Source of the DNA: Prevotella sp.
GTDB lineage: Bacteria; Bacteroidota; Bacteroidia; Bacteroidales; Bacteroidaceae
Direction of reading: 5' to 3'
Length of the DNA: 42,261 nucleotides
Assembly (NCBI GenBank): GCA_017960525.1
Contig: JAGCZA010000103.1
Coordinates: 1-42,261 of the forward strand
The position numbers were made by a program, and so were the translations under genes. This document shows positions 11,901-34,425 of this stretch, piece by piece (the first letter of the stretch is position 1; each line of letters opens with the position of its first letter). The notes beneath the pieces were generated by a model. It saw nothing but the letters and a program-made list of their open reading frames with translations. It was not told the origin of the DNA and did not search any database.

Positions 11901-12927
11901 GAACACCGTATGCCTGGACGAGGCCCACGTCATCAAGAACCGTGAGACAAAGACATCGGCATCAGTCATGAAGCTGAACGCCAAAAACCGCATCATCCTC
12001 ACAGGCACGCCCGTACAGAACCACTTGGGCGAGCTGTGGAACCTCTACCAGTTTATCAACCCAGGACTGCTGGGCAGCTACGAGCAGTTCCAGAAGAAGT
12101 ACATTGTGCCCATCGAACTGCAGAACAACAAGGAACGCTCGCGCCAGCTGAAACGTATCGTGGCCCCTTTCATACTACGCCGGACCAAGCAGGAAGTCAT
12201 TGAGGAACTGCCCGACAAGACGGAAATCAGTTTGCCTGTAGAACTGAGCGACAGTGAACTGGCCGTCTACGAGGTCATCCGCCGGCGTGCCAAGCAACTG
12301 CTGGAAGACGAGCAGGGCGGCGCACCCAGCGTGAACACCCTGGCCGAGATTACCCGGCTCAGGCAGGCTGCCTGCTCCGCCGAGCTGGCCGAGAAATCGT
12401 GGAAAGGCGAGTGCTCGAAAATCAGCACCCTTCTGTCGCTGCTCGAAGAGATTGTGGGAAGCGGCAACTCGGTGCTCGTCTTCAGCCAGTTCACCTCGTT
12501 CCTTGCCCTCGTGCGCAAGACCCTCGACAAGCAGAAGATGGAATTCTCCTACTTAGACGGAGCCGTTCCTATGAAAAAGCGCGAACAGCTGGTCAGCGAC
12601 TTCCAGCACGGCCGATACCCCATCTTCCTTATCTCACTGAAGGCGGGCGGACTGGGCCTGAACCTTACTGGAGCCAACTACGTCATCCACATGGACCCCT
12701 GGTGGAATCCTGCCGTCGAGCAGCAGGCCACCGACCGTGCCTACCGCATAGGCCAGCGGCAGAACGTCACCGTCTATCACCTCATCTCACAGCACACCAT
12801 CGAAGAGAAAATCCTGCGGCTGCACGAGACCAAGCGCAACCTTGCCGATGCTATGCTCGAAGGCACCAGCGAGAGCCACAAGCTGACCAGCAAGGAACTG
12901 CTCGAAATGTTGAGTGTTGAGAGTTGA
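8941..12927 (+). CDS. SNF2/Swi2-family DEAD/DEAH helicase (1,328 aa)
   Basis: Probable DNA translocase or nucleoprotein remodeller of the RapA/SNF2 superfamily. The long N-terminal ~860 residues have no domain I can name. The ATPase core starts near residue 868 (LKAELRDYQTEGYQWM). Visible motifs are Walker A DDMGLGKT (K904, T905), Walker B DEAH (993-996), motif III TGTPVQN, and in the C-lobe VFSQFTSF, SLKAGGLGLNLTGANYV, PWWNPAVEQQA and DRAYRIGQ (from D1265). No substrate-specific domain is apparent. The last residues (LLEMLSVES) and the TGA stop are encoded by a 7-bp-period TTGAGNG repeat, so the native C-terminus may have been replaced. It is monocistronic and driven from repeat B. Confidence 0.95.
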   Translation: MEELYQKYLLLKLEQRKLLCLLAYTDRETEKRFISVYSKVEDLTYNQTMTIVNRLSSSSYLRVIHYYNNEYGLEPLHVAPLLVYMLKEMPQWLSSFDKFFKNYQSAERRLFISRLRLCIEGRGQSVTNTIGSALTPLLLPLTSEPAFLPLMLDIPSYQSADFVCKAAVYQLENDLPDPHNILGKIAELGFNNMSIQTKSVIRSIVALFDYIKQGRYDEHIAVYNNLYSKLLVGLRALYLGDYDTAFASYIASIRERNKDTLPSLKGFYNITLNNYTLVLAYHLREADEHKKLAALYKKDAFANYSAPFWLTRYLLKGKIPSKNDISYELKNNPLRQYMALLMARFFNINVEQPKTLPAMPRTHLLRHELSPWLTLPEKEKEQLVKEFGGSPLLTRLRFKPAWELLLEELTPKQQTGHVQEDEKQTRVGYLVNFDRVELREQSRLKSGLWGAGKRMSVDTFKRGTNFMDDTDRRIAASVNSWYSYDIGVEKILPYLVGSDRVYTGRYAPFEPVTIDEEKPYLIIERSKTAFAVKSNIGDAKMVSNVIYRKHNDTHYTVITMTDRQRLYYSKLLAVGAFPLDAEPLLREFLPKVSDIVEVHSELVEGGTTLEHRNGTSQLCLQVMPTAGSRNLFNVYCMARPLAEGKTLLEPGKGLNPCVAEADGVRYQVTRDIKGERANLTLLRTFVEDTEIMADDLDEPFSDRKPVIASAEGLLQLMEFVREQKEQFYIEWPEGGQIRLKTTNTAAWDIMLKSRNGWFEIEGEIPIDDDTVLSVGQLLQLVAEGPKSGFIRLNDSDFIAISDRLRKQLARLESLTVSNRGHLQISELHASLLGSALSGEVEVKHDKRIDELQSNIKQSMSMIPATPKQLKAELRDYQTEGYQWMVRMTGWGAGLCLADDMGLGKTVQTIAFMLHTADQGPALVAAPASVVPNWRRELERFAPSLHVVVLNSAPDRKETVEQASNGDVVLTTYGLFVTEGEQLIEKLWNTVCLDEAHVIKNRETKTSASVMKLNAKNRIILTGTPVQNHLGELWNLYQFINPGLLGSYEQFQKKYIVPIELQNNKERSRQLKRIVAPFILRRTKQEVIEELPDKTEISLPVELSDSELAVYEVIRRRAKQLLEDEQGGAPSVNTLAEITRLRQAACSAELAEKSWKGECSKISTLLSLLEEIVGSGNSVLVFSQFTSFLALVRKTLDKQKMEFSYLDGAVPMKKREQLVSDFQHGRYPIFLISLKAGGLGLNLTGANYVIHMDPWWNPAVEQQATDRAYRIGQRQNVTVYHLISQHTIEEKILRLHETKRNLADAMLEGTSESHKLTSKELLEMLSVES

Positions 12928-12937
12928 GGGTTGGCCG
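12910..12937. repeat. Heptad repeat at the helicase stop codon
   Basis: Four 7-bp steps TTGAGTG, TTGAGAG, TTGAGGG, TTGGCCG. They encode the last residues and stop of the helicase and belong to the 7-bp-period family seen elsewhere in the window. Confidence 0.7.
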
Positions 12938-13005
12938 TTTAGTCGTTTGGGCTAATCCGTTCAATCCGTTGTTTGAAAATTAGTTTAATTCGTGAAATTC
13001 GTGGT

Positions 13006-14490
13006 TCATTTCTTGTTGACGATGCTCAGGTAGCGGTCGTAGGCGGCATCCCATTTGGCCTTGTCGGCGGGTTCGTATTTCACCAATTCGATGGAGTCGG
13101 CGATGATTTTGCGCATTTCCCAGATGTCGCCGACCACGCGGGCGGCCTTGGCCTGCATCATAATGTTGCCGATGGCGGTGCACTCCTGAGGGCCGGCCAG
13201 CACGGTGGCTCCAGTGGAGTTGGCGGTGAACTGGTTGAGATACTTGTTGAGCGAGCCGCCGCCGATGATGTGGAGCACCTCCAACTTGAACGGGGCGAAC
13301 TCCTGCAGCCACTGGAACACCTGGCGGTAGCGCAGGGCCAGCGAGTCGAAGATGCAGCGGCAAATCTCTGCGGGCGTCTCGGGCACGTACTGGTTGCTCT
13401 CGCGGCAGTATTTCCGGATGGCCTCTATCATCGACGACGGGGCGGCAAACGCCTGGTCGTCGGGGTTGATGATTGAGCGGAATGGCTCAACGGTCATCGC
13501 CTGACCCTGCAGTTCGGGGTGCGAGAGTTTACGCACTTCTTCGGGCCACTCCTGACGGCAGCGCTCGTAGAGCCACATACCGCAGATGTTCTTCAGGAAG
13601 CGCGTGGTGCCCTCGATGCCGCCCTCGTTGGTGAAGTTGCGCTCGTAGGAGAGGTCGCTGATGATGGCGTCCTTCGCCTCGATGCCCATCAACGACCACG
13701 TGCCGCTGCTGAGGTAGGCGAACTTCTCGTCCTTGGCGGGAACGGCGGCAACGGCGCTGCCAGTATCGTGGCCGGCAACGGCGATGACGGGCACCTGTCC
13801 CAGTCCGGTGAGTTTCTGCACTTCGTCCGTCAGGACGCCGATGACGGTGCCCGGCTGCACCATTTTTCCGAACTTTGCCCGCGACAGCCCCAAGGAGGCC
13901 AGCAGGCGCTCGTCGAGTTGCTTTGTCCTGGGGTCGAGCAGTTGCGATGTCGAGGCGATGGTGTATTCGCACACCTCGTTCCCCGTCAGCATCCAACTCA
14001 GTGCGTCGGGCACAAACAGTATTTTCTTCGCCATCTGGAAGGCCGTGTTCTGCTCGCGCTTCATAGCGTAGAGTTGGAAGATGCTGTTGAAGTTCATGAA
14101 CTGTATGCCGGTGACATTGTAGACCTCGCGTTGCGAGATGACATGCTGCAGGTAGTCGTCCATTGCGTCGAAGGTGATGGGGTCACGGTAGGCACGCGGA
14201 TTGCGCAGGATGGCGCCGTCTTCGCCGATGAAGACGAAGTCCACGCCCCAGGTGTCGATGCCGATGGAGGTGATTTCCACACCGCGCCTGGCCACTTCGC
14301 GCAGGCCCCGGATGATTTCAAAGTAGAGGGCGTAGATGTCCCAGTAGTAGTGACCGCCCTGCTCTATCAGGTTGTTGGGGAAGCGCGTCACTTCCTCCAG
14401 GTCGAACTTGCCGTCTTTGATGTTGCCAATGATTGTGCGGCCGCTGGTGGCTCCCAGGTCGACCGCGAAGAAATACTTCTTGTTTTCCAT
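13006..14490 (-). CDS. rhaB: Rhamnulokinase
   Basis: 494 aa, the usual length. It phosphorylates L-rhamnulose to L-rhamnulose 1-phosphate in L-rhamnose catabolism (cytoplasm). It is an FGGY-type kinase: an N-terminal ATP-binding motif DLGATSGRTIIG (residues 11-22), then TSIGIDTWGVDFVF and the C-terminal domain with AGHDTGSAVAAVPA, YLSSGTWSLMG and HIIGGGSLNKYLNQ. It is separated from other rhamnose genes: no isomerase, aldolase or transporter lies next to it, at least inside this window. A full-consensus promoter lies just upstream. It converges on the helicase gene with about 78 nt between them. Confidence 0.93.
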   Translation of the reverse strand: MENKKYFFAVDLGATSGRTIIGNIKDGKFDLEEVTRFPNNLIEQGGHYYWDIYALYFEIIRGLREVARRGVEITSIGIDTWGVDFVFIGEDGAILRNPRAYRDPITFDAMDDYLQHVISQREVYNVTGIQFMNFNSIFQLYAMKREQNTAFQMAKKILFVPDALSWMLTGNEVCEYTIASTSQLLDPRTKQLDERLLASLGLSRAKFGKMVQPGTVIGVLTDEVQKLTGLGQVPVIAVAGHDTGSAVAAVPAKDEKFAYLSSGTWSLMGIEAKDAIISDLSYERNFTNEGGIEGTTRFLKNICGMWLYERCRQEWPEEVRKLSHPELQGQAMTVEPFRSIINPDDQAFAAPSSMIEAIRKYCRESNQYVPETPAEICRCIFDSLALRYRQVFQWLQEFAPFKLEVLHIIGGGSLNKYLNQFTANSTGATVLAGPQECTAIGNIMMQAKAARVVGDIWEMRKIIADSIELVKYEPADKAKWDAAYDRYLSIVNKK

Positions 14491-14532
14491 ACTCAGGTTA
14501 GTTGTTTGGTAGTTGTTCAGTTATTATGTGTG

Positions 14533-14562
14533 CAAAGTTACGAATTTTTTCTTTTCCTCCAA
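14533..14562 (-). promoter_or_regulatory. rhaB promoter
   Basis: On the minus strand TTG (14560-14562), 19 nt, then TAACTTTG (14533-14540), about 43 nt before the ATG at 14490. Confidence 0.8.
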
Positions 14563-14685
14563 CAAGTTTTTCATATTTTGTAATGCAAGTTTTTGTTTTT
14601 TTTAATTTTCCGCATTACGCTTATTGGTAAAAAGGGGGTCTGTCGATAATACCGATGCACATTGCCTAAATCATGCGTAGCCATT

Positions 14686-14790
14686 CCCCTCCCTTCAAGG
14701 GGAGGGTCAGGGGTGGGGTCTGTAATTTCTTGTCATCCAAAAAGATACTGACCCCACCACCAATCCCTCCCCTACAAGGGAGGGGAGGGG
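14686..14790. repeat. Long imperfect inverted repeat (MITE-like), upstream of rhaB
   Basis: The left arm (about 14686-14723: CCCCTCCCTTCAAGGGGAGG, then GGGGTGGGGTCTG) pairs imperfectly with the right arm (about 14748-14790: ACCCCACCACC, CCCTCCCCTACAAGGGAGGG). Each arm itself contains a smaller palindrome. It has the same style as the element at 20970-21082. No gene is seen from 14491 to 15160. Confidence 0.65.
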
Positions 14791-14829
14791 CTGCGCCGTG
14801 ATGCACCGAAGAAAACGGCTAACCCCAAA

Positions 14830-14928
14830 AAAGGACGAACCAAACTGGGAGAAAGGACGAACCAAACTGGGAGAAAGGACGAAGCAAACTCGTAAATTCT
14901 CTGGAGAATTTAGGTGTTTGCTCCGTCC
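14830..14928. repeat. 22-bp tandem repeat leading into a near-perfect hairpin
   Basis: Two identical 22-bp units at 14830-14851 and 14852-14873 (AAAGGACGAACCAAACTGGG...) and a third partial unit at 14874. The third becomes the left arm of a hairpin at 14877-14928: GGACGAAGCAAAC pairs with GTTTGCTCCGTCC and TAAATTCTC with GAGAATTTA. Confidence 0.8.
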
Positions 14929-14933
14929 AAAGT

Positions 14934-14975
14934 CCCACTTTAATTTAAACGAATGGGGGGCTTCAGTAACTCTGA
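14934..14975. repeat. Left copy of the 42-bp direct repeat derived from the lpd 3' end
   Basis: Differs from 16987-17027 by one extra G and one A/T change. It starts CCCACTTTAATTTAAACG and ends CTTCAGTAACTCTGA. It contains the reverse complement of the last nine lpd codons and stop, frameshifted by the extra base, with no lpd gene attached. Confidence 0.9.
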
Positions 14976-15094
14976 AATTTATGTTTTTTGTGAAATATGG
15001 AGAATTTTGAAGAAGTACAGTTGACGTATTTCTTTGTTTTTTTTCGATTATAGGCTAATTATTTCTTTGGTTTTTTTCGATTTTTGCTAAATTA

Positions 15095-15126
15095 TTTGTT
15101 TGGATTATTTCTTTTTTGTATCTTTG
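15095..15126 (+). promoter_or_regulatory. Promoter of the broken ATPase gene
   Basis: TTTG (15095-15098), 20 nt, then TATCTTTG (15119-15126); ATG at 15161. Confidence 0.75.
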
Positions 15127-15160
15127 CAGTCGATTTTTACGATACAAATACGCTTTCGAA

Positions 15161-16528
15161 ATGTACTACGAACGAATCATAGATCAGTATCTTAGCGAAT
15201 GGGCTGCACGACTATCTCATAAACCTGTGCTGTTGCGAGGTGCCTGACAGGTAGGAAAATCTACAGCCGTCAGACATTTAGGTGAACAATTTAAATACTT
15301 CGTCGAAATCAACTTGGAGAAGCAGTCTGAATACAAGGCTCTGTTCCTGCAAAACATCGAAGTGAAGCGTATCGTACCTCAGATGGCTGCCATGCATGGC
15401 ACACCCATCATTCCCGGGCAGACGCTCTTGTTTATCGACGAGATTCAGGATTGCCAAGAAGCCATTATGGCTCTGAGATATTTTAAGGAAGATATACCTG
15501 AACTGCATGTCGTTGCTGCAGGCTCGCTGTTTGAGTTTGTGCTCGATGACATTCCGACATTCGGTGTGGGCAGAATCCATTCGATGTATATGTATCCCAT
15601 GTCTTTCGATGAGTTTCTCCTTGCCAATGATGAAAGGCTCCTGATGGAAGCCCGTAATCAGGCTTCGCCCACATCCCCTTTGCCAACGCCGCTCCACGAC
15701 AAGCTGACCAGTCTGTTGCGTACCTTCATGCTGGTGGGCGGAATGCCTGAGTCGGTGGTAAAATGGGTGGAGACTCACGATTATCTGCAATGCCAGGAAG
15801 TACAGGACGATCTCATTACTGGTTATGAAGCCGACTTTCCCAAATACAAGAAAAAGGTTGACCCGCAACTTCTGAGGATGACCATGAGGAGTGCGGCACA
15901 ACAGGCCACTAAGAAGTTTATGTATTCTCAGGTGCCCGGCGAGTATAAGACAGCTGAGGTTAAGAAAGCCCTCGAACTGCTAATCAAGGCCAACATCATC
16001 ATCCCTGTCACCCACACCAATTCCAGCGGACTTCCTTTAGGCGACGGAAAGGATGACGGCATTCGCAAGATGTTGGTGCTGGACACTGGTCTGATGCTGA
16101 GACTGCTGAATCTGACAATGGGTAACATCACGGAGCTGACGACACACATCCTCACAGCGACGGCAGCCGACTTGGTGAACAAAGGCCCGATGGCAGAGAT
16201 GTTGGCCGGTCTTGAACTCCTTCACTATCGCACACCCAATCTGCGATATGAGCTGTTCTACTGGCAGCGACAGGCAAAGAATGCCACTGCTGAGGTGGAT
16301 TATGTCCTGCCCCACGAAACAAATATCCTGCCGTTCGAAGTGAAGGCAGGTGTCCAAGGAGGCATGAAAAGCCTCTGGGCCTATATGCGTGAAAGGAAAC
16401 TCTCGCAGGCCATCCGCTGCTCTTTGGAGAATTTCGGCGAGTTCGACTATATCGATGAAAAGGCAGACAATGCCATCAGGCATATCCGCATCTTCCCGCT
16501 ATATGCCATCCGCATTTTTATGGGTTAA
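15161..16528 (+). pseudogene. AAA-type ATPase (ATP-binding protein with DUF4143), broken by an in-frame TGA
   Basis: From the ATG at 15161 the frame reads MYYERIIDQYLSEW, then PVLLRGA, TGA (15245-15247), QVGKSTAVRHLG, and stays open to 16528: 455 codons with one stop. Family members read GARQVGKST here, so a single CGA-to-TGA change destroys the Walker A motif at codon 29. The rest is intact: Walker B LFIDEIQDCQEA, sensor-like VVAAGSLFEFVL, then the DUF4143 C-terminal region (MRSAAQQATKKFMYSQV, PFEVKAGVQGGMKSL). Family members are widespread accessory ATPases of unclear role. A full promoter precedes it. Restart inside the gene would give a protein without a P-loop, so I call it a pseudogene. 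Confidence 0.85.
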
Positions 16529-16530
16529 AG

Positions 16531-16938
16531 TTAAGATCAAAGGAATATAACAAACCCATTGACGGTGCCGAGTACATCACATTTGAAGATGCCAAGCGGC
16601 TGAAACTGCCATACTTTGAAAGACTAGCAGCAGGATATCCGTCGCCTGCTGGCGACTACCAGCATGAGAGCCTTGTTCTGAACGAGAAGTTCGTGCATCA
16701 TCCCGAAGCCTCGTACTTCGTCTGTATCAAGGGTGAGTCGATGATTGGTCTTGGACTCTTCGATGGTGACATCTGCCTGGCAGACCGTTCGGAAGAGATT
16801 TCGGACGGCAATATCGTGGTGGCCATACGGATATCGAAGGAACTGAACGGTGAGGACTGCATCCCCTGGGTTGAGAACGTTGTCAAGTTCGGAAACCCGA
16901 CTAATGGAAAAGAGGCGCAGAAGCTGGGAACGTCCTGA
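16531..16938 (+). pseudogene. UmuD/S24-type peptidase remnant
   Basis: An open frame running out of the 3' end of the ATPase pseudogene, with no ATG of its own (a GTG occurs at 16693). It matches UmuD-like proteins: LPYFERLAAGYPSPAGDYQ (cleavage-site region) and HPEASYFVCIKGESMIGLGLFDGD, with the catalytic Ser in GESM. After DGNIVVA the sequence diverges, and the second half with the catalytic Lys is missing or rearranged; another frame opens after 16920. UmuD-type proteins self-cleave and act in SOS mutagenesis with UmuC, but no umuC is present. It is broken at both ends and trapped between the two lpd-end repeats. Confidence 0.7.
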
Positions 16939-16986
16939 TAGTCGGCAGACTCGTCACGCCAATGGTGGTAGGTGTCGGCTATTTGA

Positions 16987-17027
16987 CCCACTTTAATTTA
17001 AACGAATGGGGGCTTCAGTATCTCTGA
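16987..17027. repeat. Right copy of the 42-bp direct repeat (native lpd 3' end)
   Basis: Covers the last nine codons and stop of lpd plus 11 nt beyond. See 14934-14975 for the detached copy. Confidence 0.9.
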
Positions 17028-18248
17028 GAGGGTGGGATGGATATGCACCATGTCGGACAGTTCGGCGATTGTGGTGTGCTTGCACATAAGGACGCTGACT
17101 TCCTGGACGATGTCGGCGGCGTGTGCTCCGAAGGCATGACAGCCGAGGATGAGGCCTGGGGTCTGTTCTGAAGATGAGACAAATAGCTTGAGCATTCCCT
17201 CGGTCTGCCCCATAGCGAGTGCCTTGCCGTTGGCCCGCCAGAACGATTTTCTGCACTCGTTGGCAATGCCCTGCTCCTTGAGCTGGTCTTCCGTCGGGCC
17301 TACGCAAGCTGCCTCTGGCGATGTGAAGATGGCTGCGGGCATAATGTCGAAGCGGATGCCGTCTTGTCGGTGTAGGATGTGGTTTACTGCTCTGACGGCT
17401 TGCATTTCTGCTGCATGGGCCAGCATCTGACGGCCATTCACATCGCCGATGGCGTAGAGGGACTGGCGATTGACAATTTGGAAGTTGTCGTCGACGGGGA
17501 TGGTACCGTTAGCGGCAAGGGTGATGCCTGCGGCTTCAAGGTTAAGGCCTTCGGTACGAGGTTTCCTGCCTGTAGCCATAAGAACCACATCGGCATCGAT
17601 ATCGGCTATATCCTTAACAGCGGTCTTCATCTTAAAGTTGATGCCGCGCTTCTCCAGCGTCTTGCGGAGTCGCTTGGCTATGTCGCTGTCAAGAGCGGGG
17701 AGGCATTCCTTGAGATACTCAATGACTGTGACTTCTGAACCGAAGCGGTTGAATATTGATGCGAACTCCATACCGATGACTCCTGCACCTATGATGGCAA
17801 GACGCCTGGGGAGGGAGTCGAGGCGCAACAGTTCGGTGGAATCAACCACGCGAGGGTTGTCCTTTCCGGCTATGGGCAACCACTTGGTCTCGGAGCCGGT
17901 GGCTATGATGATGTTTTCTGCGCCGATGGTATCGCCGCATACGGAACAGACGGTGGTGGCATCAGCGAAGCAGGCTTTTCCGCGTATCAAAGTGATGTTT
18001 GGGTGAGAGAGGATGCCCTCAACCCCCTGACGGAGTTGAGGGACAACCTCTGCCAGACGTTGCCGAGCCTCAGCGAAAGTGGCGCTGTGTACGTAAGTCT
18101 TTGTGGGAATACATCCCACATTCAGGCAAGTGCCGCCAACTTCCCCCTCCTCGAAGACAACGACTTTCAGCCCCTGCTTGGCGGCATATTCTGCCGCCCG
18201 ATACCCGCCTGGGCCTGCCCCTATTATTATCAGGTCAGTTCTGTTCAT
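16998..18248 (-). CDS. lpd: Dihydrolipoyl dehydrogenase (glycine-cleavage L protein)
   Basis: 416 aa; slightly short for the family (about 450-475). It reoxidises the dihydrolipoyl arm of GcvH using FAD and NAD+. Visible features: FAD-binding GAGPGG (10-15), the redox disulfide C41-LNVG-C46 in GGTCLNVGCIPTK, NAD-binding IGAGVIGMEFASIFNRFG, the second FAD motif YAIGDVNGRQMLAHAA, and the catalytic H404...E409 in HIHPTLSEIL. It is the last gene of the glycine-cleavage operon, and its start overlaps gcvPB by 14 nt. Its C-terminus is only seven residues past the catalytic Glu; the stop lies within the 42-bp repeat, so the end may have been reshaped by an insertion event. Confidence 0.95.
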   Translation of the reverse strand: MNRTDLIIIGAGPGGYRAAEYAAKQGLKVVVFEEGEVGGTCLNVGCIPTKTYVHSATFAEARQRLAEVVPQLRQGVEGILSHPNITLIRGKACFADATTVCSVCGDTIGAENIIIATGSETKWLPIAGKDNPRVVDSTELLRLDSLPRRLAIIGAGVIGMEFASIFNRFGSEVTVIEYLKECLPALDSDIAKRLRKTLEKRGINFKMKTAVKDIADIDADVVLMATGRKPRTEGLNLEAAGITLAANGTIPVDDNFQIVNRQSLYAIGDVNGRQMLAHAAEMQAVRAVNHILHRQDGIRFDIMPAAIFTSPEAACVGPTEDQLKEQGIANECRKSFWRANGKALAMGQTEGMLKLFVSSSEQTPGLILGCHAFGAHAADIVQEVSVLMCKHTTIAELSDMVHIHPTLSEILKPPFV

Positions 18249-19644: not shown

Positions 19645-20960
19645 AGTGCAGCAATCTTTACGAGGTTATCAATTTCTTCTTTCGTACGCTTCTCGGTGAC
19701 GGCAAAGAGCAGTCCGTCCTTCAACTTTACACCGCCCAGGAATCCTGCATCGATAAAGCGTTGGTAGAGTGTGTCAATGTCTCCATCGTACTTTACATAG
19801 AATTCATTGAAGAAAGGCTTGTCGTAGGCCAGATGGAAACGTCCGGTCTCCTGTAGTTTGCCGCAAAGATAGTGAGCGCCTGCGTATGAGAGCTGTGCCG
19901 CTTCCTTTATGCCTTGTTTTCCCATCAGCGAGAGACAGATAGTCACAAAGAGTGCCATCAGACTTTGGTTGCTGCAGATGTTGGAGGTGGCCTTCTGGCG
20001 GCGGATGTGCTGTTCACGCGCCTGAAGTGTGAGCACAAAGGCACGCTGGTTAAGGTTGTCCTTGGTCATACCCACGATGCGGCCAGGCATTTTGCGTATC
20101 AGTTTCTCTGTGCAGCACATATAGCCCACGTATGGGCCGCCCCACTGCATAGGAATGCCAAGACTCTGTCCGTCGCCCACTGCGATGTCGGCTCCCCACT
20201 CTCCAGGCGTCTTCAGCACGGCCAGGTCTGCGGCTACGCTATCTATGATGAATAGGGCCTTCTTTTCATGACAAGCATCGGCAAAGCCGGTAAAGTCCTC
20301 TACAATGCCAAAGACATTGGGCTGCTGTACGATGACGCCAGCCACGCCATTGAGAGTTGAGAGTTGAGAGCGGAGTGTTGAGAGATTTGTAACACCACCC
20401 TCGGTGGCAATCGTCACCAGTTCTATACCCTGATGCAAGGCATAGTTATCCAGCACCTCACGTGTCTTCGGATTCAGGCCTTCCGACACCAGCACCTTGT
20501 TCTGCTTCTTGCCAACGGCCAACGCCATCATCATCGCCTCGGCACAAGCTGTAGTTCCGTCGTACATCGAGGCGTTAGAGATGTCCATGCCTGTCAGCTC
20601 GGCCATCATACTCTGGTACTCAAATATATAGTGAAGCGTACCCTGCGAGATTTCTGCCTGATAGGGGGTGTAGCTGGTCAGGAACTCAGACCGTTGCAGC
20701 AGACTTGTCACTACCGATGGCGTATAGTGGTCGTAGACACCAAAGCCAGCGAAACATGTCAGCTGCTGGTTCTGAGAGGCCAGCTTCTGGAACAGTTGGC
20801 GCACCTCCATCTCGCTCATCTCCGAAGGGATGTTGTAATCGCCTTTGAAGCGGATGCTCTCTGGTATCTGGGCGTAGAGGTCGTCAAGGCTGTTTACCCC
20901 AGCCTTTGTCATCATCGCCTTCAGGTCTTCATCGGTATGAGGGAAATATTTGTATTGCAT
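19641..20960 (-). CDS. gcvPA: Glycine dehydrogenase (decarboxylating) subunit 1
   Basis: 439 aa, the non-PLP-lysine half of the split P protein. Signatures: MQYKYFPHTDEDLKAMM start, CFAGFGVYDHYTPSVV, FLTSYTPYQAEISQGTLHYI, MYDGTTACAEAMMMA, and GRIVGMTKDNLNQRAFVLTL. An unusual insert STLRSQLSTLNG precedes VAGVIVQQPNVFG; it is encoded by a 7-bp-period repeat at 20350-20385 and replaces sequence that is normally variable. The reading frame stays open, so the enzyme is probably functional. A long inverted repeat separates it from gcvH. Confidence 0.95.
   Translation of the reverse strand: MQYKYFPHTDEDLKAMMTKAGVNSLDDLYAQIPESIRFKGDYNIPSEMSEMEVRQLFQKLASQNQQLTCFAGFGVYDHYTPSVVTSLLQRSEFLTSYTPYQAEISQGTLHYIFEYQSMMAELTGMDISNASMYDGTTACAEAMMMALAVGKKQNKVLVSEGLNPKTREVLDNYALHQGIELVTIATEGGVTNLSTLRSQLSTLNGVAGVIVQQPNVFGIVEDFTGFADACHEKKALFIIDSVAADLAVLKTPGEWGADIAVGDGQSLGIPMQWGGPYVGYMCCTEKLIRKMPGRIVGMTKDNLNQRAFVLTLQAREQHIRRQKATSNICSNQSLMALFVTICLSLMGKQGIKEAAQLSYAGAHYLCGKLQETGRFHLAYDKPFFNEFYVKYDGDIDTLYQRFIDAGFLGGVKLKDGLLFAVTEKRTKEEIDNLVKIAAL
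20350..20385. repeat. Heptad repeat inside gcvPA
   Basis: Three TTGAGAG steps, a diverged step, and another TTGAGAG on the plus strand. On the coding strand it reads as SQLSTLN-type peptide, the same peptide that appears in ClpA. Confidence 0.75.
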
Positions 20961-20969
20961 TTATTTTAT

Positions 20970-21082: not shown

Positions 21083-21083
21083 C

Positions 21084-21461: not shown

Positions 21462-21473
21462 AACCTTAGCCCT

Positions 21474-23869: not shown

Positions 23870-24008
23870 ATTTGCGGATTTACGATTTACGATTTGTTAC
23901 AACCCTATATAATTTACGATTTACGGATTTACGATTTACGATTTGTTACAACCCTATATAATTTACGATTTACGGATTTACGATTTACGATTTACGATTT
24001 ACGATTTG
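23870..24008. repeat. Heptad repeat array with a 49-bp higher-order duplication
   Basis: Runs of GATTTAC at 7-bp period. A 49-bp block (23891-23939) is repeated exactly at 23940-23988; 49 is seven times seven. The block starts GATTTGTTACAACCC. No gene is convincing in 23778-24120. Confidence 0.9.
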
Positions 24009-24022
24009 TTGAAACTTTTTTC

Positions 24023-24048
24023 GGGCTGGCACAGGGCCTGCCCCTACG
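24023..24048 (+). repeat. 26-bp dispersed repeat, copy 1
   Basis: GGGCTGGCACAGGGCCTG followed by CCCCTACG. Related copies are at 37821-37846 (inside a glycosyltransferase gene) and 38459-38484. The ends pair imperfectly (GGGCTGGC/GCCTGCCC). Confidence 0.75.
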
Positions 24049-24727: not shown

Positions 24728-24754
24728 AAAACCGTCGGAAAAATTGTGAAGTTT

Positions 24755-24786: not shown

Positions 24787-24794
24787 CAGGCAAG

Positions 24795-26071: not shown

Positions 26072-26086
26072 ACAACTAATTACATT

Positions 26087-26395
26087 ATGCCAACCAGTCA
26101 GTCACAAATAAAAGAACGGCAACGCACCGACATCAGGGAGCCGAGAAGATACAAGGTGATTATCTACAACGACGATTTCACCGCGATGGATTTTGTCGTG
26201 ATGGTGCTTGTCCAGGTGTTCTTCAAAAGCGAGGAAGAAGCCAACGCACTTATGTTGAAAGTGCACCACTCGGACAAGGCCGTGGTGGGCATCTATACCT
26301 ACGACATCGCCGTTTCCAAGGCTCGCAAGGCCACCAATATGGCGCGGGAAAAGGGATTCCCATTGCGTCTTTCCGTTGAACCAGAAGAGACATAG
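26087..26395 (+). CDS. clpS: ClpS N-degron adaptor
   Basis: 102 aa, usual length. It delivers proteins with destabilising N-terminal residues (Leu, Phe, Tyr, Trp) to ClpAP. Core motifs are visible: RRYKVIIYNDDFTAMDFVVMVLVQVF (the NDD...T region that forms the N-degron pocket), HHSDKAVVGIYTYDIAVSKA and the family's C-terminal FPLRLSVEPE. It is followed by clpA after 5 nt, so adaptor and unfoldase are made together. Confidence 0.95.
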   Translation: MPTSQSQIKERQRTDIREPRRYKVIIYNDDFTAMDFVVMVLVQVFFKSEEEANALMLKVHHSDKAVVGIYTYDIAVSKARKATNMAREKGFPLRLSVEPEET

Positions 26396-26400
26396 GCACT

Positions 26401-28659: not shown

Positions 28660-29311
28660 AGAGTTGTGGTTCCCCGACCCGCATCTGGGAGAGCCAAGCG
28701 GGCTGGTGGCCGTAGGGGGCGACCTGTCGGCAGACCGGTTATTGCTGGCCTATAGTAACGGCTTCTTCCCCTGGTACTCGTTTCGCGACTGGGACGAGCC
28801 TCACTGGTATTGCCCACTCGACCGTTACGTCATCTTCCCAAACGAAATCCACATCAGCCACTCGATGCGGCAATTGCTCCGATTTGACAAGTATGAGGTG
28901 ACCATCAACAAAGACTTCCTGGGCGTCATTCGGGGTTGCGCTACTGTTCAGGGGCGCAACGAGGAAGAGGGAGCCTGGCTCGGCCCCGACATCATCAACG
29001 CCTACACCGAACTGAACCGACAGGGCTTCGCCACCAGCGTGGAGGTATGGGAACAGGAGCGGCTCGTCGGCGGCCTCTATGGCGTTTGCCTGCGCCGAGC
29101 CTTCTTCGGCGAGAGTATGTTCTCGCTGGTGCCCAATGCCTCGAAACTGGCCCTCATCTGCCTGGCCCTGCGAATGGAGACCATAGGCGGCCACTTCATC
29201 GATTGCCAGTTTGAGACACCTCACTTCGCCTCAATGGGCGGTCGCCACATCACTTACGAACAATACATGAGAATCCTGGACAGTGGTAATCAAGACCATA
29301 AGTCCATATAA
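28637..29311 (+). CDS. aat: Leucyl/phenylalanyl-tRNA-protein transferase
   Basis: 224 aa, usual length. It adds Leu or Phe from charged tRNA to proteins with N-terminal Lys or Arg, creating N-degrons that ClpS recognises. Motifs: FPDPHLGEPSGLVAVGGDLS (here WFPDPHLGEPSGLVAVGGDL), LLLAYSNGFFPWYS, WYCPLDRYVIFP, EEGAWLGPDIINAYTELNRQG, SVEVWEQERLVGGLYGVCLR, FFGESMFS and HFIDCQFETPHFASMGG. It is the last gene of the operon and starts within clpA. Together with clpS and clpA it provides the whole bacterial N-degron route except ClpP. Confidence 0.96.
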   Translation: MAVFRLDEELWFPDPHLGEPSGLVAVGGDLSADRLLLAYSNGFFPWYSFRDWDEPHWYCPLDRYVIFPNEIHISHSMRQLLRFDKYEVTINKDFLGVIRGCATVQGRNEEEGAWLGPDIINAYTELNRQGFATSVEVWEQERLVGGLYGVCLRRAFFGESMFSLVPNASKLALICLALRMETIGGHFIDCQFETPHFASMGGRHITYEQYMRILDSGNQDHKSI

Positions 29312-29350
29312 TAGTTAAATTGACCAAGGGTGCCTTTTTTTTCTATTTTA

Positions 29351-29381
29351 TTTGTATTTTCCAAAACTTTTTGTAATTTTG
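29351..29381 (+). promoter_or_regulatory. Promoter of the outer-membrane protein gene
   Basis: TTTG (29351-29354), 19 nt, TAATTTTG (29374-29381); 41 nt before the ATG at 29423. Confidence 0.75.
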
Positions 29382-29422
29382 CACACTATTCGATTCAAAA
29401 AAAGATATTTCATCATTCAACT

Positions 29423-30022
29423 ATGAAAAGGACTATTATTGCTGCATCACTTTTTCTGTCTGCCATTTGCGTTTCCGCACAGCAGGAATCCGGGCTCACC
29501 ATTCAGCCTAAGATTGGTTTGAACATTGCCAACTATACCAATTCGGACAATTCTGACCCCCGCATCGGCATAGCTGCCGGATTAGAATTGGAGCACTACT
29601 TGACAAAAAACTTCAGCCTTTCATCCGGGTTTATATATTCAATGCAAGGGGCTAAGGAATCTGGGACATACCAAGGTTATCAAGCAACTGTGACATCGAA
29701 GACAGATTACATCAACATACCTATCTTGGCGAATATCTACTTTGCAAAAGGACTGGCTCTGAAATTCGGCCTCCAACCGGGTTTAAACGTAAACTCGAGC
29801 TATGAGGTGTCTACCCAAGGCATCTCTGTAAGCGGTAGTTTGTCTGACATGCACATTGACATCAATACGTTTGACCTCTCCATTCCTGTCGGCCTGTCGT
29901 TTGAATACAAGCATGTGGTGATTGACGGACGCTACAATATCGGCGTTACGAAAATGGTTGATAGGGATGACTCGAAAAACAGTGTTATCCAATTGACTCT
30001 TGGCTACAAGTTCGAATTTTAG
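29423..30022 (+). CDS. Outer-membrane beta-barrel protein (PorT/OMP_b-brl_2-like)
   Basis: 199 aa from the ATG at 29423. I chose this start because the longer in-frame start overlaps the promoter and lacks a signal peptide at its N-terminus. Signal peptide MKRTIIAASLFLSAICVSA is followed by QQESGLTIQPKIGLNIANYT and repeated amphipathic strands (LELEHYLTKNFSLSSGFIYS, DYINIPILANIYF, ALKFGLQPGLNV, LSIPVGLSFEYKHVVIDGRY). It ends in the aromatic LTLGYKFEF typical of outer-membrane barrels. The substrate is unknown. Its 3' end overlaps the likely start of the radical SAM gene. Confidence 0.85.
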   Translation: MKRTIIAASLFLSAICVSAQQESGLTIQPKIGLNIANYTNSDNSDPRIGIAAGLELEHYLTKNFSLSSGFIYSMQGAKESGTYQGYQATVTSKTDYINIPILANIYFAKGLALKFGLQPGLNVNSSYEVSTQGISVSGSLSDMHIDINTFDLSIPVGLSFEYKHVVIDGRYNIGVTKMVDRDDSKNSVIQLTLGYKFEF

Positions 30023-31169
30023 TTTGGTTGCGACACCCTTCGGCCACCCTGTCTACGTCATGCTGAAGCCGGTAGGGGCGGTCTGCAATATGGCCTGCAA
30101 CTACTGCTACTATCTGGAGAAAAGCCGGCAGACGCTGGACAAAGAGCTGCTGGAGCAGTTCACACGCGAATACATCGAAGCACAGACACAACGCGACGTG
30201 CTCTTCATCTGGCACGGAGGCGAACCGTTGTTGCGCCCGCTCTCCTTCTACCGTCACGCCCTGGAGTTGCAACGGCGACACGCCGGCTGGCACCACATAG
30301 ACAACTGCCTTCAAACCAACGGCACGCTACTGACCGACGAGTGGTGTGAGTTTCTCCGTGAAAACCATTTCCTTGTGGGCATTTCCATCGACGGGCCACA
30401 GGAACTACACGATGGCTACCGACGCTACCGCAACGGTACGCCTACCTTCGATGATGTGATGAAAGGCATACGTTTGCTCCAAAAGCACGGCGTGGAGTGG
30501 AACGCGATGGCCACGGTGAACAGCCTCAACGCCGACCACCCCATAGAGTTCTACCGCTTCTTCAAGGAGATGGGCTGCCAGTTCCTCCAGTTCACGCCCG
30601 TCGTGGAACCTCCCACCTCCCACCCCTCACCTCTCACCTCCGTCAATCCTGCCCAATGGGGGCGTTTCCTCTGCCAGCTCTACGACGAGTGGTTGCGCGA
30701 GGATGTGGGGCGGCTCTTCGTACAACTCTTCGACGCCACGCTGGCTAACTGGGTGGGGGCGGAGCCTGGCCTCTGCTCGCTTTCTCCCACGTGCGGAAGC
30801 GCAACGGTGATGGAGGCCGACGGCACCGTCTATGCCTGCGACCACTTCGTCTTTCCCGAATACAGACTGGGGAACATACACCAACAATCGCTCACACAGA
30901 TACTCTATAGTGAACAACTAAGAACCTTCGGACAACAGAAACTCACGGCATTGCCTCGACAATGTCGTGAGTGTCAATTCCTTTTCGCCTGTCACGGTGA
31001 GTGTCCGCGCAACCGATTCGTGCGAGACCGCTACGGCGAGCCTGGCCTGAACTACCTTTGCGAGGGCTACCACCAGTTCTTCAGCCACGTTGCCCCAACT
31101 ATGAACCTGATGGCGCAAGCCTTGCGTGAAGGCCGCCCAGCATCGGACTTCCTTCCCCACTCCTTCTAA
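30000..31169 (+). CDS. Radical SAM enzyme, anaerobic sulfatase-maturase type
   Basis: 389 aa. It probably converts a Cys or Ser of sulfatases to formylglycine. The radical SAM cluster is C29-x3-C33-x2-C36 (VCNMACNYCYYLEK). The SPASM region has CGSATVMEADGTVYACDHF and CRECQFLFACHGECPRN. There is no suitable ATG at the 5' end; the family's YVMLKPVGAVCN region needs upstream sequence, so TTG at 30000 (or 30024) is the likely start, overlapping the outer-membrane gene by 23 nt. The segment PPTSHPSPLTS is encoded by a 7-bp-period repeat. No sulfatase gene is in the window. Confidence 0.9.
   Translation: MATSSNFSLVATPFGHPVYVMLKPVGAVCNMACNYCYYLEKSRQTLDKELLEQFTREYIEAQTQRDVLFIWHGGEPLLRPLSFYRHALELQRRHAGWHHIDNCLQTNGTLLTDEWCEFLRENHFLVGISIDGPQELHDGYRRYRNGTPTFDDVMKGIRLLQKHGVEWNAMATVNSLNADHPIEFYRFFKEMGCQFLQFTPVVEPPTSHPSPLTSVNPAQWGRFLCQLYDEWLREDVGRLFVQLFDATLANWVGAEPGLCSLSPTCGSATVMEADGTVYACDHFVFPEYRLGNIHQQSLTQILYSEQLRTFGQQKLTALPRQCRECQFLFACHGECPRNRFVRDRYGEPGLNYLCEGYHQFFSHVAPTMNLMAQALREGRPASDFLPHSF
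30610..30645. repeat. Heptad repeat inside the radical SAM gene
   Basis: CTCCCAC, CTCCCAC, CCCTCAC, CTCTCAC, CTCCGTC steps at 7-bp period, in frame, encoding a Pro/Ser-rich insert before NPAQWGRF. Confidence 0.75.
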
Positions 31170-31174
31170 TTGGG

Positions 31175-31235
31175 AGTTATATACCTTCTAAGTAGGAGTT
31201 ATATACCTTCTAACTGGTAGTTATATACCTTCTAA
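31175..31235. repeat. 22-bp tandem repeat, three units (array 1)
   Basis: AGTTATATACCTTCTAA at 31175, 31197 and 31219, exactly 22 bp apart. It lies 6 nt past the radical SAM stop, between convergent genes. The same unit occurs inverted at 38385-38445. Confidence 0.95.
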
Positions 31236-31272
31236 GTAGGAACTCCCCGCCAGGGAGGGGTAGGTTGTCTGA

Positions 31273-32556
31273 CTATATTTCCGCTAACGCTTGTTTGATA
31301 TCGTCGAGCAGGTCGTCTACGTCCTCAATGCCTACTGAGAGGCGGATGAGGTCAGGGGCGACACCTGCCTCACGCAATTGCTCGTCGGACAACTGGCGAT
31401 GGGTGTGGCTGGCAGGATGGAGCACGCAGGTACGTGCGTCGGCCACGTGTGTGACAATGGCTATCAACTTGAGCGAGTCCATAAACTTGATGGCGGTCTG
31501 GCGGTCACCCTTCAGGCCGAAGGCAATGACGCCACAAGAGCCGTTGGGCAGATATTTCTGGGCCAATTGGTAGGCGTCGTCGCCAGGCAGACCGCTATAG
31601 TGCACCCAAGCCACACGGTCGTCCTGCTGGAGGAACTCGGCAATGCGTTGGGCGTTGGCGCAATGCTGGCGCATACGCAAATGGAGCGTCTCCAGTCCGA
31701 GATTGAGCAGGAAGGCATTGTGGGGCGAAGGTATGCTACCAAGGTCGCGCATTAACTGGGCTACAAGTTTGGTCATATAGGCCATCTTTCCAAATGCCTT
31801 CGTATAGGTCAATCCGTGATACGACTCGTCAGGTGTGCACAGGCCGGGGAACTTGTCGGCGTGGGCATCCCAGTCGAAGTTGCCGCTATCCACCACACAA
31901 CCGCCCACTTGCGTGGCGTGGCCGTCCATATACTTCGTAGTGCTATGGGTCACGATGTCGGCTCCCCACTCGAAAGGCCGGCAATTGATAGGCGTTGGGA
32001 AGGTGTTGTCAATAATCAAGGGGACGCCGTGGCGGTGGGCAATGCGGGCGAACTTCTCTATGTCGAGCACGCGGCAACCGGGGTTGGAAATAGTTTCGCC
32101 GAAGAGGGCCTTTGTATTGGGGCGGAAGGCGGCGTCAATCTCCTCTTCCGATGCCTCCTGGCTGACGAAAGTGCACTCAATGCCAAGTTTCTTCAACGTG
32201 ACACCAAAGAGGTTATAGGTGCCTCCGTAGATTTCGTTGGAGGTGACGAAATGGTCGCCGGCGCTACAGATGTTGAACAGGGCGTAGAAGTTGGCAGCCT
32301 GTCCGCTGCTGGTGAGCATAGCCCCTACCCCACCCTCCAAGGCGGCAATCTTCTGGGCCACGGCATCGTTGGTGGGATTCTGCAGACGGGTGTAGAAATA
32401 GCCCTCCTTCTTCAGGTCGAAGAGGTCGGCCATTTCCTCCGTGTTGTCATACTTGAACGTGGTGCTTTGAAAGATGGGGAGCACCCGCGCTTCTCCGTTT
32501 TTTGGCTCCCATCCTGCCTGAACGCAGAGGGTTGCCGGTTTCAATGTTTTTTTCAT
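31273..32556 (-). CDS. metY: O-acetylhomoserine sulfhydrylase / aminocarboxypropyltransferase
   Basis: 427 aa, usual length. It is a PLP enzyme of the Cys/Met-metabolism family and makes homocysteine (or methionine) from O-acetylhomoserine and a sulfide donor. Signatures: TLCVQAGWEPKNGEARVLPI start, QSTTFKY, GYFYTRLQNPTNDAV, MLTSSGQAAN, IIDNTFPTP and the PLP lysine K208 in THSTTKYMDGHAT. The C-terminal LIRLSVGIEDVDDLLDDIKQAL is also typical. It follows the glycosyltransferase-glucosaminidase gene by 39 nt, but the functions do not appear linked. Confidence 0.93.
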   Translation of the reverse strand: MKKTLKPATLCVQAGWEPKNGEARVLPIFQSTTFKYDNTEEMADLFDLKKEGYFYTRLQNPTNDAVAQKIAALEGGVGAMLTSSGQAANFYALFNICSAGDHFVTSNEIYGGTYNLFGVTLKKLGIECTFVSQEASEEEIDAAFRPNTKALFGETISNPGCRVLDIEKFARIAHRHGVPLIIDNTFPTPINCRPFEWGADIVTHSTTKYMDGHATQVGGCVVDSGNFDWDAHADKFPGLCTPDESYHGLTYTKAFGKMAYMTKLVAQLMRDLGSIPSPHNAFLLNLGLETLHLRMRQHCANAQRIAEFLQQDDRVAWVHYSGLPGDDAYQLAQKYLPNGSCGVIAFGLKGDRQTAIKFMDSLKLIAIVTHVADARTCVLHPASHTHRQLSDEQLREAGVAPDLIRLSVGIEDVDDLLDDIKQALAEI

Positions 32557-32595
32557 CGTTATTTTATGTTATTTTCGTGTTAATTGACCCCCTTG

Positions 32596-34425
32596 TTACC
32601 TGAGTCGCAACTGGTCGCCAACCTGAATATTGTAGTCAGGATTCAGGTGGTTCATCTTGTAGAGCGACTTCAGGCGTATGCCGTATTTCTGGGCGATAGA
32701 GTACATCGACTCGCCTGCCCTGACGTAGTGGCTTCGGCCCTTATACTCGCTGGCGGCTTTCTTCTGTTTCTTCTTCAGCCAGATGATTTCTCCCTCCTGT
32801 AGGGCGTCGTTGCGGTCGCGCTCGTTGTATTTGGCAATCTTCTTGTAACTGATGTCCAGTTCCTCGCCAATGGAGCGGAACGTGTCGCCACGACGGGCGA
32901 TGAGATAATAGTTCTTGTTGTAAATCTTAATCAGGTGGAGCGGTTGAGCGCTCTTGGTGTGGTCGTAGAGGAAATGGTCATACTTCTTCGCCTTGTCGTA
33001 CTCGTAGAGTTTGTAGAGTTGGATGAGTTCTATGAGGCGGTTGGCATATTGCGGATTGGTGGCATAGCCTGCTGCCTTCAGGCCCTTTGCCCAGCCCCGG
33101 TAGTCGGTCAACTTGAGGGAAAACAGCCCTTTGTAGCGCTGGCCTGTGGCCAAGAAGCGGGAGTGGTCTTCAAACGACTCGTAAGGAGAATCGTAGGCGC
33201 GGAAACACTCGTTCTTGGTCTCATCGTCGCTCAAAATCGTGGCCTTTTGCCAGCCGTGGCACTTGATGCCGAAGTGGTTGTTGCCTTTGGTGGCCAGGCG
33301 GCTCTGGCCGGCTCCGCTTTCAAGCAGGCCCTGGGCCAAAGTGATGCTGGCGGGCACTTTCCACTTGAGCATCTGCTCGATGGCACAATCCTTGTACTGG
33401 TCGATATATTGCTGGTAGCGGGCGTTCCAGGTCGATTGCGCCCCTGCAGGGCTGGCGAATAGTGAAAAGTGAAAAGTGAAAAGCAAAAAGAGAAGAGTCT
33501 TTGAGGCCTTTTCCACCAGATAGTTGGGTCGCCGCTTCGATTCGTTGAAGATATGGCCCAGATATTCGCCAAGAATCCCCAGGCAGATGAGTTGTACGGC
33601 GCCGAGGAAAAGCATCACGCAGATGAGTGTGGGATAGCCTGCCACTGGGTCGCCCCAGACGACGGCTTTTATAAAGGTATAAATGAGATAGATAAAAGCG
33701 CCGATGCCTGTGAGGAAACCCAGGATGGTGGCTAAGCGCAGGGGGGCGGTGGAGAAACTGACAATGCCCTCCAGAGCAAGGCTGGCCAACTGCCACAGGC
33801 TCCAATGGCTCTGCCCATAGCGGCGCTCCTCCTGGTCGAAGAGTATTTCCTTCTTTCGGAAACCTATCCAACTATAAAGCCCTTTGGTGTAGCGTTCCGT
33901 CTCACGCAAACGGCGTAGGGCATCGATGCACTTGCGGTCGAGCAAGCGGAAGTCGCCCACGTTCTGAAGCACCTCGTAACGGCTGCTACGAGCCATAATA
34001 TGATAGAAGGCCATAGTCAGTCGGCGGCGCAACCAACTCTCCTTGCCACGAGTGCGCCGACGGGCATAAACGTCTTCATAGCCCTGCTCCCACCACGACA
34101 GCATTTCGGCAATGACCTGGGGCGGGTGCTGCAGATCGGCATCGATGACGACAGCGCAATCGCCCGTGGCGTGGTCGAATCCAGCCAGCATAGCCGCCTC
34201 TTTGCCAAAGTTGCGCGACAACTCCACGTAGGCTACACGTGCGTCTTTTGCGGCCAGTTCCTCAATGATGGCCTGGGTGCCGTCGTGGCTGCCGTCGTTG
34301 ACGAAGAGCAGTTCAAAGTCGTAGCCCTCCTGTGCCGACATCATACTACACAGACTATCATAAAGGGCCGGCAGCGAAGCCTCCTCGTTGTATGACGGCA
34401 CAATGATGCTTACTTTCTTCCTCAT
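32596..34425 (-). CDS. Fusion: GT2 glycosyltransferase + glucosaminidase (GH73-like) + two LysM
   Basis: 609 aa from the ATG at 34425, 7 nt after the phosphatase gene. Residues 1-~310 are a GT2 polyprenyl-phosphate glycosyltransferase like GtrB/DPM1: SIIVPSYNEEASLPAL, D95-A-D97 in DADLQHPP, and two membrane helices near the C-terminus (FLTGIGAFIYLIYTFIKAVV, LICVMLFLGAVQLICLGILG). Residues ~311-330 (TLLFLLFTFHFSLFASPAG) look like a signal peptide and are encoded by GTGAAAA heptads. Residues ~335-475 are a glucosaminidase (ITLAQGLLESGAGQSRLATK, NNHFGIKCHGW). Two LysM domains follow (~505-550, ~565-609). Normally these would be two genes; they are joined in frame through the repeat. Confidence 0.88.
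   Translation of the reverse strand: MRKKVSIIVPSYNEEASLPALYDSLCSMMSAQEGYDFELLFVNDGSHDGTQAIIEELAAKDARVAYVELSRNFGKEAAMLAGFDHATGDCAVVIDADLQHPPQVIAEMLSWWEQGYEDVYARRRTRGKESWLRRRLTMAFYHIMARSSRYEVLQNVGDFRLLDRKCIDALRRLRETERYTKGLYSWIGFRKKEILFDQEERRYGQSHWSLWQLASLALEGIVSFSTAPLRLATILGFLTGIGAFIYLIYTFIKAVVWGDPVAGYPTLICVMLFLGAVQLICLGILGEYLGHIFNESKRRPNYLVEKASKTLLFLLFTFHFSLFASPAGAQSTWNARYQQYIDQYKDCAIEQMLKWKVPASITLAQGLLESGAGQSRLATKGNNHFGIKCHGWQKATILSDDETKNECFRAYDSPYESFEDHSRFLATGQRYKGLFSLKLTDYRGWAKGLKAAGYATNPQYANRLIELIQLYKLYEYDKAKKYDHFLYDHTKSAQPLHLIKIYNKNYYLIARRGDTFRSIGEELDISYKKIAKYNERDRNDALQEGEIIWLKKKQKKAASEYKGRSHYVRAGESMYSIAQKYGIRLKSLYKMNHLNPDYNIQVGDQLRLR
33461..33497. repeat. Heptad repeat at the GT2-glucosaminidase junction
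   Basis: AGTGAAA repeated three times at 7-bp period, then decayed copies (AGCAAAA AGAGAAG). A gain or loss of one unit would shift the frame and split the fused protein into two. Confidence 0.8.

Follow-up and report, generated by a model that had tools for sequence, protein, structure and literature searches.

Heptanucleotide repeat arrays in Prevotella as probable terminal repeats of small S23/IVP mobile elements

Introduction

Heptanucleotide repeats are abundant in several bacterial genomes, and their origin is left open in the two works on them that were consulted (PMC4679880, PMC4692102), which describe TAACTGA repeats from Beggiatoaceae, cyanobacteria and some Bacteroidetes (PMC4679880) and GGGNATC repeats from Xanthomonas and Nostoc (PMC4692102). 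This article deals with such repeats in 42,261 nucleotides of Prevotella sp. DNA (assembly GCA_017960525.1, contig JAGCZA010000103.1, positions 1 to 42,261; "the window"), which is contig C39 of a genome of 3.97 Mb in 146 contigs, 94% complete ("our own genome"), and with small genes of the family PF05635. This family is that of the 23S rRNA intervening-sequence protein, S23/IVP. In the Coxiella intervening sequence (IVS) tandem heptamers precede the start of S23p (PMC4990558), and S23 genes are known in cas loci (PMC3936711).

An earlier note on this DNA had described at least seven loci with 7-bp tandem steps of differing unit sequence and had suggested a mechanism such as a polymerase, slippage or a templated insertion that works in steps of seven. 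We propose, with a probability of roughly 0.8, that the arrays represent the termini of small S23/IVP mobile elements, found either as solo repeats or within short copies that have lost internal sequence. These elements would be built of a C-poor array, one PF05635 gene and the same array inverted, and the proposal includes that they are relatives of the 23S rRNA intervening sequences, sitting between and inside protein genes. The observations that carry it are the arrays flanking PF05635 genes, the matching of arrays and arms within one genome, occupied and unoccupied sites, and the association of arrays and PF05635 across genomes.

PF05635 genes between inverted arrays

At two sister sites an inverted pair of 32-mers encloses a small gene. 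The inner sequences differ, and a profile made for this work assigns each of the two genes to PF05635. Among seven S23 genes scanned for period-7 arrays, five had an array on both sides and one on a single side. When 58 S23 genes were taken together, an array was present on 111 of 116 sides as compared with 111 of 1000 random sides; the best period of the 111 flanking arrays was 7 in 69, 8 in 18, 14 in 9, 10 in 7 and 6 in 5, and on the random sides it was 7 in 20.

The inverted orientation was examined at 54 PF05635 loci, drawn from the better-scoring matches, by aligning the 190 bp before the gene to the reverse complement of the 220 bp after it, with 600 random intervals of similar size as control. 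Inverted repeats, mostly tandem arrays, lay above the 99th control percentile at 49 of the 54: at 19 of 20 loci from our own genome, G014 and G078 (miss L315), at 17 of 20 in a further set of 14 genomes from the family, including several array-poor ones (misses L317, L323 and L331), and at 13 of 14 on plasmids, these 14 being part of 25 plasmid matches. The plasmid loci that passed are ten cyanobacterial ones and those of Treponema, Bernardetia and Monoglobus; the miss (L357) is from Candidatus Chlorohelix. In three pairs from Nostoc/Dolichospermum plasmids the arms consist of five AATT boxes with CGT or CGC linkers.

Across 101 genomes of the family the array load, counted by the pattern RRTKRAN, which catches only part of the unit families, ranges from 0 to 728 matches, with large contrasts within genera; the reversed control of this pattern is often high because many units look alike when reversed. 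PF05635 matches (E ≤ 0.001) are found in 48 of the 101 genomes, in 46 of them above the curated cut-off. They are present in 30 of the 35 genomes with at least 25 RRTKRAN matches and in 18 of the 66 with fewer (Fisher p = 1.7e-8, Spearman 0.61, both statistics ignoring kinship). When four genomes with weak matches only are left aside, the counts become 29/35 and 15/66 (p = 9.7e-9).

All five S23 proteins that were scanned belong to PF05635, and none of the five matched a transposase model; one, from our own genome, also hit the bAvd model with an E value of 1.1e-7, below that model's cut-off.

Several plasmid S23 genes (L350, L352, L355, L356, L357 and L358) lie beside or inside defence-type loci: in the cas2-cas1 or hsdS-hsdR interval, ahead of cas1, or next to methyltransferase or helicase genes.

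The parA-parB site

In our own genome the S23 element C60 lies between a ParA-type ATPase gene and parB (Pfam names), and the stop codon of parA is supplied by the element's array. Of the parA-parB gaps at 30 loci of the genus, our own included, 28 were readable: 11 measure at most 12 bp, 8 fall within 29-55 bp and 7 within 83-140 bp, and the remaining two reach 452 and 554 bp. The two long ones are those of our own genome and G306, which harbor different S23 genes between inverted repeats. Seven loci were scanned for arrays, and a solo period-7 array was seen in four of them other than these two (L367, L372, L381, L387). For L374 and L386 the upstream gene was misassigned; the junctions look contiguous.

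The arrays of the window and their S23 elements

The window was scanned for ungapped period-7 segments with a score cut-off of at least 12. Eight segments were found at period 7 and none at periods 6 and 8; 20 third-order Markov shuffles of the window yielded no period-7 segment of this score. Six of the seven loci named in the earlier note pass the scan. The seventh, at the start of the DUF4230 gene, is weaker, contains indels and was picked up by Tandem Repeats Finder only. The gene names given there proved right (SNF2/Helicase_C, GDC-P, DUF4230, Clp AAA+, Radical_SAM/SPASM, and GT2 fused to Glucosaminidase/LysM), as did its observations that the gcvPA and clpA arrays have the peptide SQLSTLN in common and that the helicase stop codon is inside an array. 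The arrays are:

12908-12933, + strand: helicase array, units TGTTGAG/AGTTGAG, running across the SNF2 helicase stop codon; of our own S23 elements, C60 matches best
20350-20370 in the ungapped scan, up to 20384 otherwise, + strand (gene on the - strand): gcvPA array, unit TTGAGAG, encoding LSTLRSQLSTLN; best match, C60
23855-24007, no strand: intergenic ATTTACG arrays, 2.8 copies of a 49-bp super-repeat (three segments, 23877-24007, in the ungapped scan); best match, the S23 element C21
24804-24836, no strand: DUF4230 start array, weak ATTTAC(G/A), covering the gene start and encoding the N-terminus; unscored likeness by eye to C21
27625-27679, - strand: clpA mini-element, a 29-bp C-poor array, a 16-nt middle (ACTTCAGAACTGGTGT) and a 10-bp inverted arm (array segment 27651-27679 in the ungapped scan)
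30608-30640, - strand: intragenic array of the radical SAM/SPASM gene, GAGGTGAGAGGTGAGGGGTGGGAGGTGGGAGGT; best match, the S23 element C46 (AGAGGTG)
33457-33490, + strand (gene on the - strand): array at the GT2-glucosaminidase junction, unit GTGAAAA, encoding a signal-peptide-like stretch; best match, the S23 element C19 (AGTGAAG), by a small margin (score 20 vs 16.4 for foreign arms)

The window thus listed holds solo and mini copies only, the full S23 elements being located elsewhere in the genome and named here after their contigs (C60, C21, C46, C19). Nineteen arrays of our own genome, three of them at one intergenic place and none of them an S23 arm, were scored against the arms of its 10 S23 elements. 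The mean score was 20.7; the same 19 arrays scored against 100 draws of 10 foreign elements from a set of 30 gave a mean of 14.6 and 17.9 in the highest draw. Units are common to arrays within one genome. At clpA, 32 of the first 33 nt are identical to the left arm of C60, and the order of the variant units is shared as well; this copy is, to judge by its sequence, an internally deleted one of the C60 type, with a short inverted arm after 16 nt.

The GT2 glycosyltransferase is fused in frame to a glucosaminidase with LysM (window 32596-34590, - strand). This fusion was possibly made by the array, since the junction array encodes a signal-peptide-like stretch.

Two further kinds of repeat were seen in the window. 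A second dispersed family consists of 22-bp tandem repeats (CCTTCTAACTGGGAGTTATATA and its complement) at 31162-31235 and 38380-38445, with a related motif at 14830-14890. GTAG-tagged palindrome-like stretches (GTAGGGGCAGGCC...), resembling repetitive extragenic palindromic (REP) sequences, adjoin the ATTTACG arrays at 24020-24047 and the 22-bp array at 38450-38483, and stretches of a similar kind are found near arrays in the genome G008.

Period 7 beyond the window

A 319-kb sample of our own genome was composed of the window and 20 contigs (every seventh, up to 20 kb each), and two N-runs, which had counted in every row, were removed. It contains 21 segments of period 7, none of periods 6 and 8, and 16 of period 22. 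In loci of 80 related species there are 131 segments of period 7, 7 of period 6 and 36 of period 8. Shuffles of the sample and of the relatives' loci contained no arrays. The earlier note had named a period-7 signal no higher than that of periods 6 or 8 as the outcome that would speak against it; in the parts examined the signal is higher. Its central observation, that one period is shared by many unit sequences, is borne out here and holds widely: the unit changes from locus to locus, many units occur within one genome, and arrays of close species differ in 7-bp steps.

The genome G008 illustrates a high load, with 176 RRTKRAN matches on its contig C1; the arrays examined there are near-identical copies of AATTGAC, several of them directly after stop codons. 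An apparent replichore polarity of these arrays was discarded as an artefact, for it rested on part of the 176 pattern matches and other arrays lie outside it.

Length, polarity and copies of the arrays

The length of an array is not free; there is a preferred total of 32 bp. Among 428 arrays the mode is 32 bp, with 172 arrays at 29-34 bp and 48 at exactly 32; arrays of periods 6, 8 and 9 have no peak near this length. Forty-two arrays of exactly 32 bp are composed of five tetramers parted by four triplets in a 7-nt register, the first tetramer being identical to the last in 27 of the 42. Variation amounts to 4-8% at tetramer positions and to 9-19% in the linkers.

The two strands differ strongly, the richer one containing 28% G and 4% C. 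Inverted pairs of arrays are common, and the G-rich, C-poor array comes first in 27 of 27 when the second arm is defined loosely (two of the 27 come from close species and share one ClpA site). If both arms must pass a strict threshold, the C-poor strand is first in 21 pairs and the order is reversed in 3, out of 24.

One family of 32-mers (at most 3 mismatches) has 6 to 29 copies in each of four out of five species genomes and is absent from the fifth. Its copies have unlike, AT-rich flanks, and no constant target-site duplication was seen by eye around the 32-mers.

Placement in and between genes

With genes called by a simple open-frame rule, 185 of 290 arrays with polarity are intergenic. 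Among the 290 there are 108 adjacencies to a stop codon and 72 to a start codon within 60 bp, where one array can count repeatedly. In 75 of 105 coding arrays the C-rich strand is the sense strand, as is expected if in-frame stops have been purged. Of the 82 internal coding arrays, 33 have orthologues; these include insertions of about 10 residues as well as replacements without a change of length.

At the start of the second ClpA domain an LSTL-type sequence stands in 14 of 81 proteins and an LETLAPRL-type sequence in the others, the remainder being in register; in L136 another unit family is found at the same place. In L126 (11233-11311) the ClpA loop is 60 bp longer than in its close relative L092; the steps alternate between 7 and 8 bp (15 bp, five codons), so that the reading frame is kept. 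Whichever frame is read, a 7-bp repeat is translated into a 7-residue one, and the leucines here are three and four residues apart. Such heptad spacing suits a helix, which bears on the tolerance of the arrays, not on their origin.

A function as stop-codon cassette, with stops falling in all three frames since 7 is no multiple of 3, was considered as the cause of the arrays and rejected: 68 of 98 distinct units have a stop on the G-rich strand, compared with 68.1 after the units were shuffled. When every one of the 270 arrays is counted, stops number 221 against 209 in shuffles, the highest of 500 shuffles giving 224.

Weighing the proposal against other explanations

Several findings weigh against the S23 elements as the source of the arrays. 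Five of the 35 array-rich genomes (G008, G024, G041, G044 and G099) have no PF05635 match, and a search of these with TIGR02436 was also empty. The seventh of the S23 genes scanned for period-7 arrays, L203, has none on either side. Five of the 54 loci of the flanking test are below threshold, the inverted repeat of L322 is not a tandem array, and the controls of this test were random intervals rather than matched genes. For 33 of the 111 arrays flanking S23 genes the best period is neither 7 nor 14; period seven is therefore usual, not obligatory. In a fourth Nostoc/Dolichospermum plasmid locus (L351) the two sides are unequal, one having five AAGT-like boxes and the other an array of 260 bp. 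The correlation between unit similarity and S23 protein similarity is weak (r = 0.096, a value that 20 of 300 permutations attained), and coevolution of unit and S23 sequence was set aside as weak. The native sequence at one ClpA site has given way to arrays of two unit families with net length unchanged, which goes beyond plain insertion; pure insertion as the sole mode was dropped, other coding arrays being insertions. Lastly, S23 proteins are without known function (PMC4990558).

The closest competitor is slippage of a polymerase: the replication machinery, contacting 7 nt, would duplicate local words, so that each locus makes its own unit; it was proposed by Mrazek and others, as described in PMC4679880. 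Slippage explains a constant period with a changing unit, it agrees with the 7-bp-step differences between close species, and it is favored by units resembling their neighbors more closely than remote units (mean difference 0.94 at distance 1, 1.37 at distance 5). It does not, however, account for a preferred length of 32 bp that lacks a counterpart at periods 6, 8 and 9, for inverted pairs of one polarity, for units shared within a genome and with S23 arms, for a load that varies from 0 to hundreds among congeners and tracks PF05635, or for arrays flanking PF05635 genes. We consider it unlikely, and the polymerase or slippage mechanism of the earlier note is not supported as the main cause; the templated insertion named there came close to the mark, except that a mobile element's end appears to have served as template. 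A second competitor invokes REP sequences or bacterial interspersed mosaic elements (BIMEs) moved by a REP-associated Y1 transposase (RAYT). Y1_Tnp is indeed found in 21 of the 35 array-rich and 15 of the 66 array-poor genomes (p = 3.8e-4), and in G008 the motif GTAGGGGC is within 200 bp of 6 of 10 arrays. The association weakens to p = 0.021 for Y1 matches at E ≤ 1e-10, though, arrays are within 1 kb of only 2 of 20 Y1 genes, and the motif is near 0 of 146 arrays of the 80 relatives and near 3 of 23 of our own. The GTAG-tagged palindromes were not found to be linked to a Y1 transposase, G008 being a partial exception for the tag. A RAYT origin thus appears highly improbable.

Plasmid omega proteins are ribbon-helix-helix regulators that act on short direct repeats in fixed register. 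The arrays have a comparable layout and might be operators of a regulator polymerizing on 7-bp sites; a -7-like box adjoins an array in 28 cases among 175 intergenic arrays, about 2 times background, which points in the same direction. This roughly twofold enrichment was too small for promoter elements to be retained as the cause of the arrays. The many unit sequences in one genome, the arrays inside coding sequence and at stop codons, and the inverted pairs enclosing PF05635 genes all disagree with operators, to which we give a very slight chance. Templating by a reverse transcriptase on a short RNA, in the manner of telomerase or retrohoming, would fit a C-poor strand (4% C, 28% G), and Avd, which the PF05635 proteins resemble, serves the reverse transcriptase of diversity-generating retroelements (PMC10053308). 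RVT_1 has no match in our own genome (94% complete), though, and is unrelated to array load (17/35 vs 34/66, p = 0.84); for enzymes found by the RVT_1 model such templating is largely refuted, and we regard it as scarcely credible.

Proposed mechanism

On the proposal of S23 elements, a five-subunit S23 ring would hold one strand, each subunit taking a 4-nt box and the boxes following at 7-nt steps, which would give an arm of about 32 nt. A ring with fixed subunit spacing would fix the period and the 32-nt length and leave the sequence free for each paralogue, and a C-poor strand, being little folded, would suit a ring that holds one strand. The TRAP protein, a ring that holds one strand, provides the model for binding one box per subunit. 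The structurally solved homologues 2rld and 2gsc have five chains per entry each, and the Xanthomonas S23 protein is described as a toroidal homopentamer (PMC4990558). Five boxes for five subunits would be an attractive correspondence.

On this view every S23 gene is paired with an array sequence of its own, and several S23 genes in a genome bring several unit families with them. Copies may spread to new sites via the arms, in some cases inserting themselves and in others overwriting a target as long as the copy; those that survive would sit where they are tolerated, in gene ends, surface loops and signal peptides, and slippage may alter the unit numbers afterwards.

A wider version can be put forward tentatively, and we hold it to be more doubtful than probable. 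The S23/IVP rings might be sequence-flexible readers of single strands, each paralogue having its own box, that drive minimal mobile elements spreading 32-nt modules by pairing with or copying over target strands, without transposase or reverse transcriptase. They might be the source of heptanucleotide repeats in Bacteroidota, cyanobacteria and other bacteria, with the rRNA intervening sequences and Avd as specialized relatives.

If the proposal is true, it unites an unexplained repeat, a protein family without known function and the enigmatic rRNA intervening sequences in a single system that can be tested, in which small elements can rewrite protein loops, signal peptides and termini, as in ClpA, and can supply stop codons. 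The rule of five boxes, 7 nt and 32 nt would be a direct structural prediction for the pentameric ring.

Comparison with known systems

The nearest known system is the 23S rRNA IVS, which RNase III excises and in which, as in the elements described here, a PF05635 gene is located inside an inverted-repeat stem. Unlike the rRNA IVS, the elements here lie between protein genes, their stem is mostly a tandem array, and solo and mini copies are scattered through the genome. With a copy between parA and parB and annotated plasmid copies among protein genes, they are IVS-like rather than IVS proper.

REPINs (REP doublets forming hairpins), BIMEs and miniature inverted-repeat transposable elements (MITEs) are short non-autonomous inverted-repeat copies of a larger element. 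The elements here differ from them in that the arms are tandem arrays, the inner gene belongs to PF05635 and is not a recognized transposase. With diversity-generating retroelements they have an S23-like protein in common, Avd, whose bAvd model one of our own S23 proteins matches below threshold; they differ by the absence of a reverse transcriptase association and of an RVT_1 match in our own genome.

The arrays, being 7-nt tandem units beyond chance, are heptanucleotide simple sequence repeats, and they resemble the long simple sequence repeats of this kind (Mrazek 2007, as given in PMC4679880) and the TAACTGA and GGGNATC repeats in having many 7-bp tandem units per genome, a patchy distribution by lineage and a largely intergenic position. 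No element is described in what was consulted of the works on these repeats (PMC4679880, PMC4692102), whereas the 32-bp module, the inverted polarity and the cognate S23 gene are features of the arrays here. In the titles and opening abstract lines turned up by searches of the open literature, a scope that leaves out most subscription journals and all preprints, a link of PF05635 genes to dispersed heptamer arrays was not found. The parts are known, namely heptamers, rRNA S23 elements and cas-locus S23 genes; dispersed heptamers as the ends of S23 elements appear to be new.

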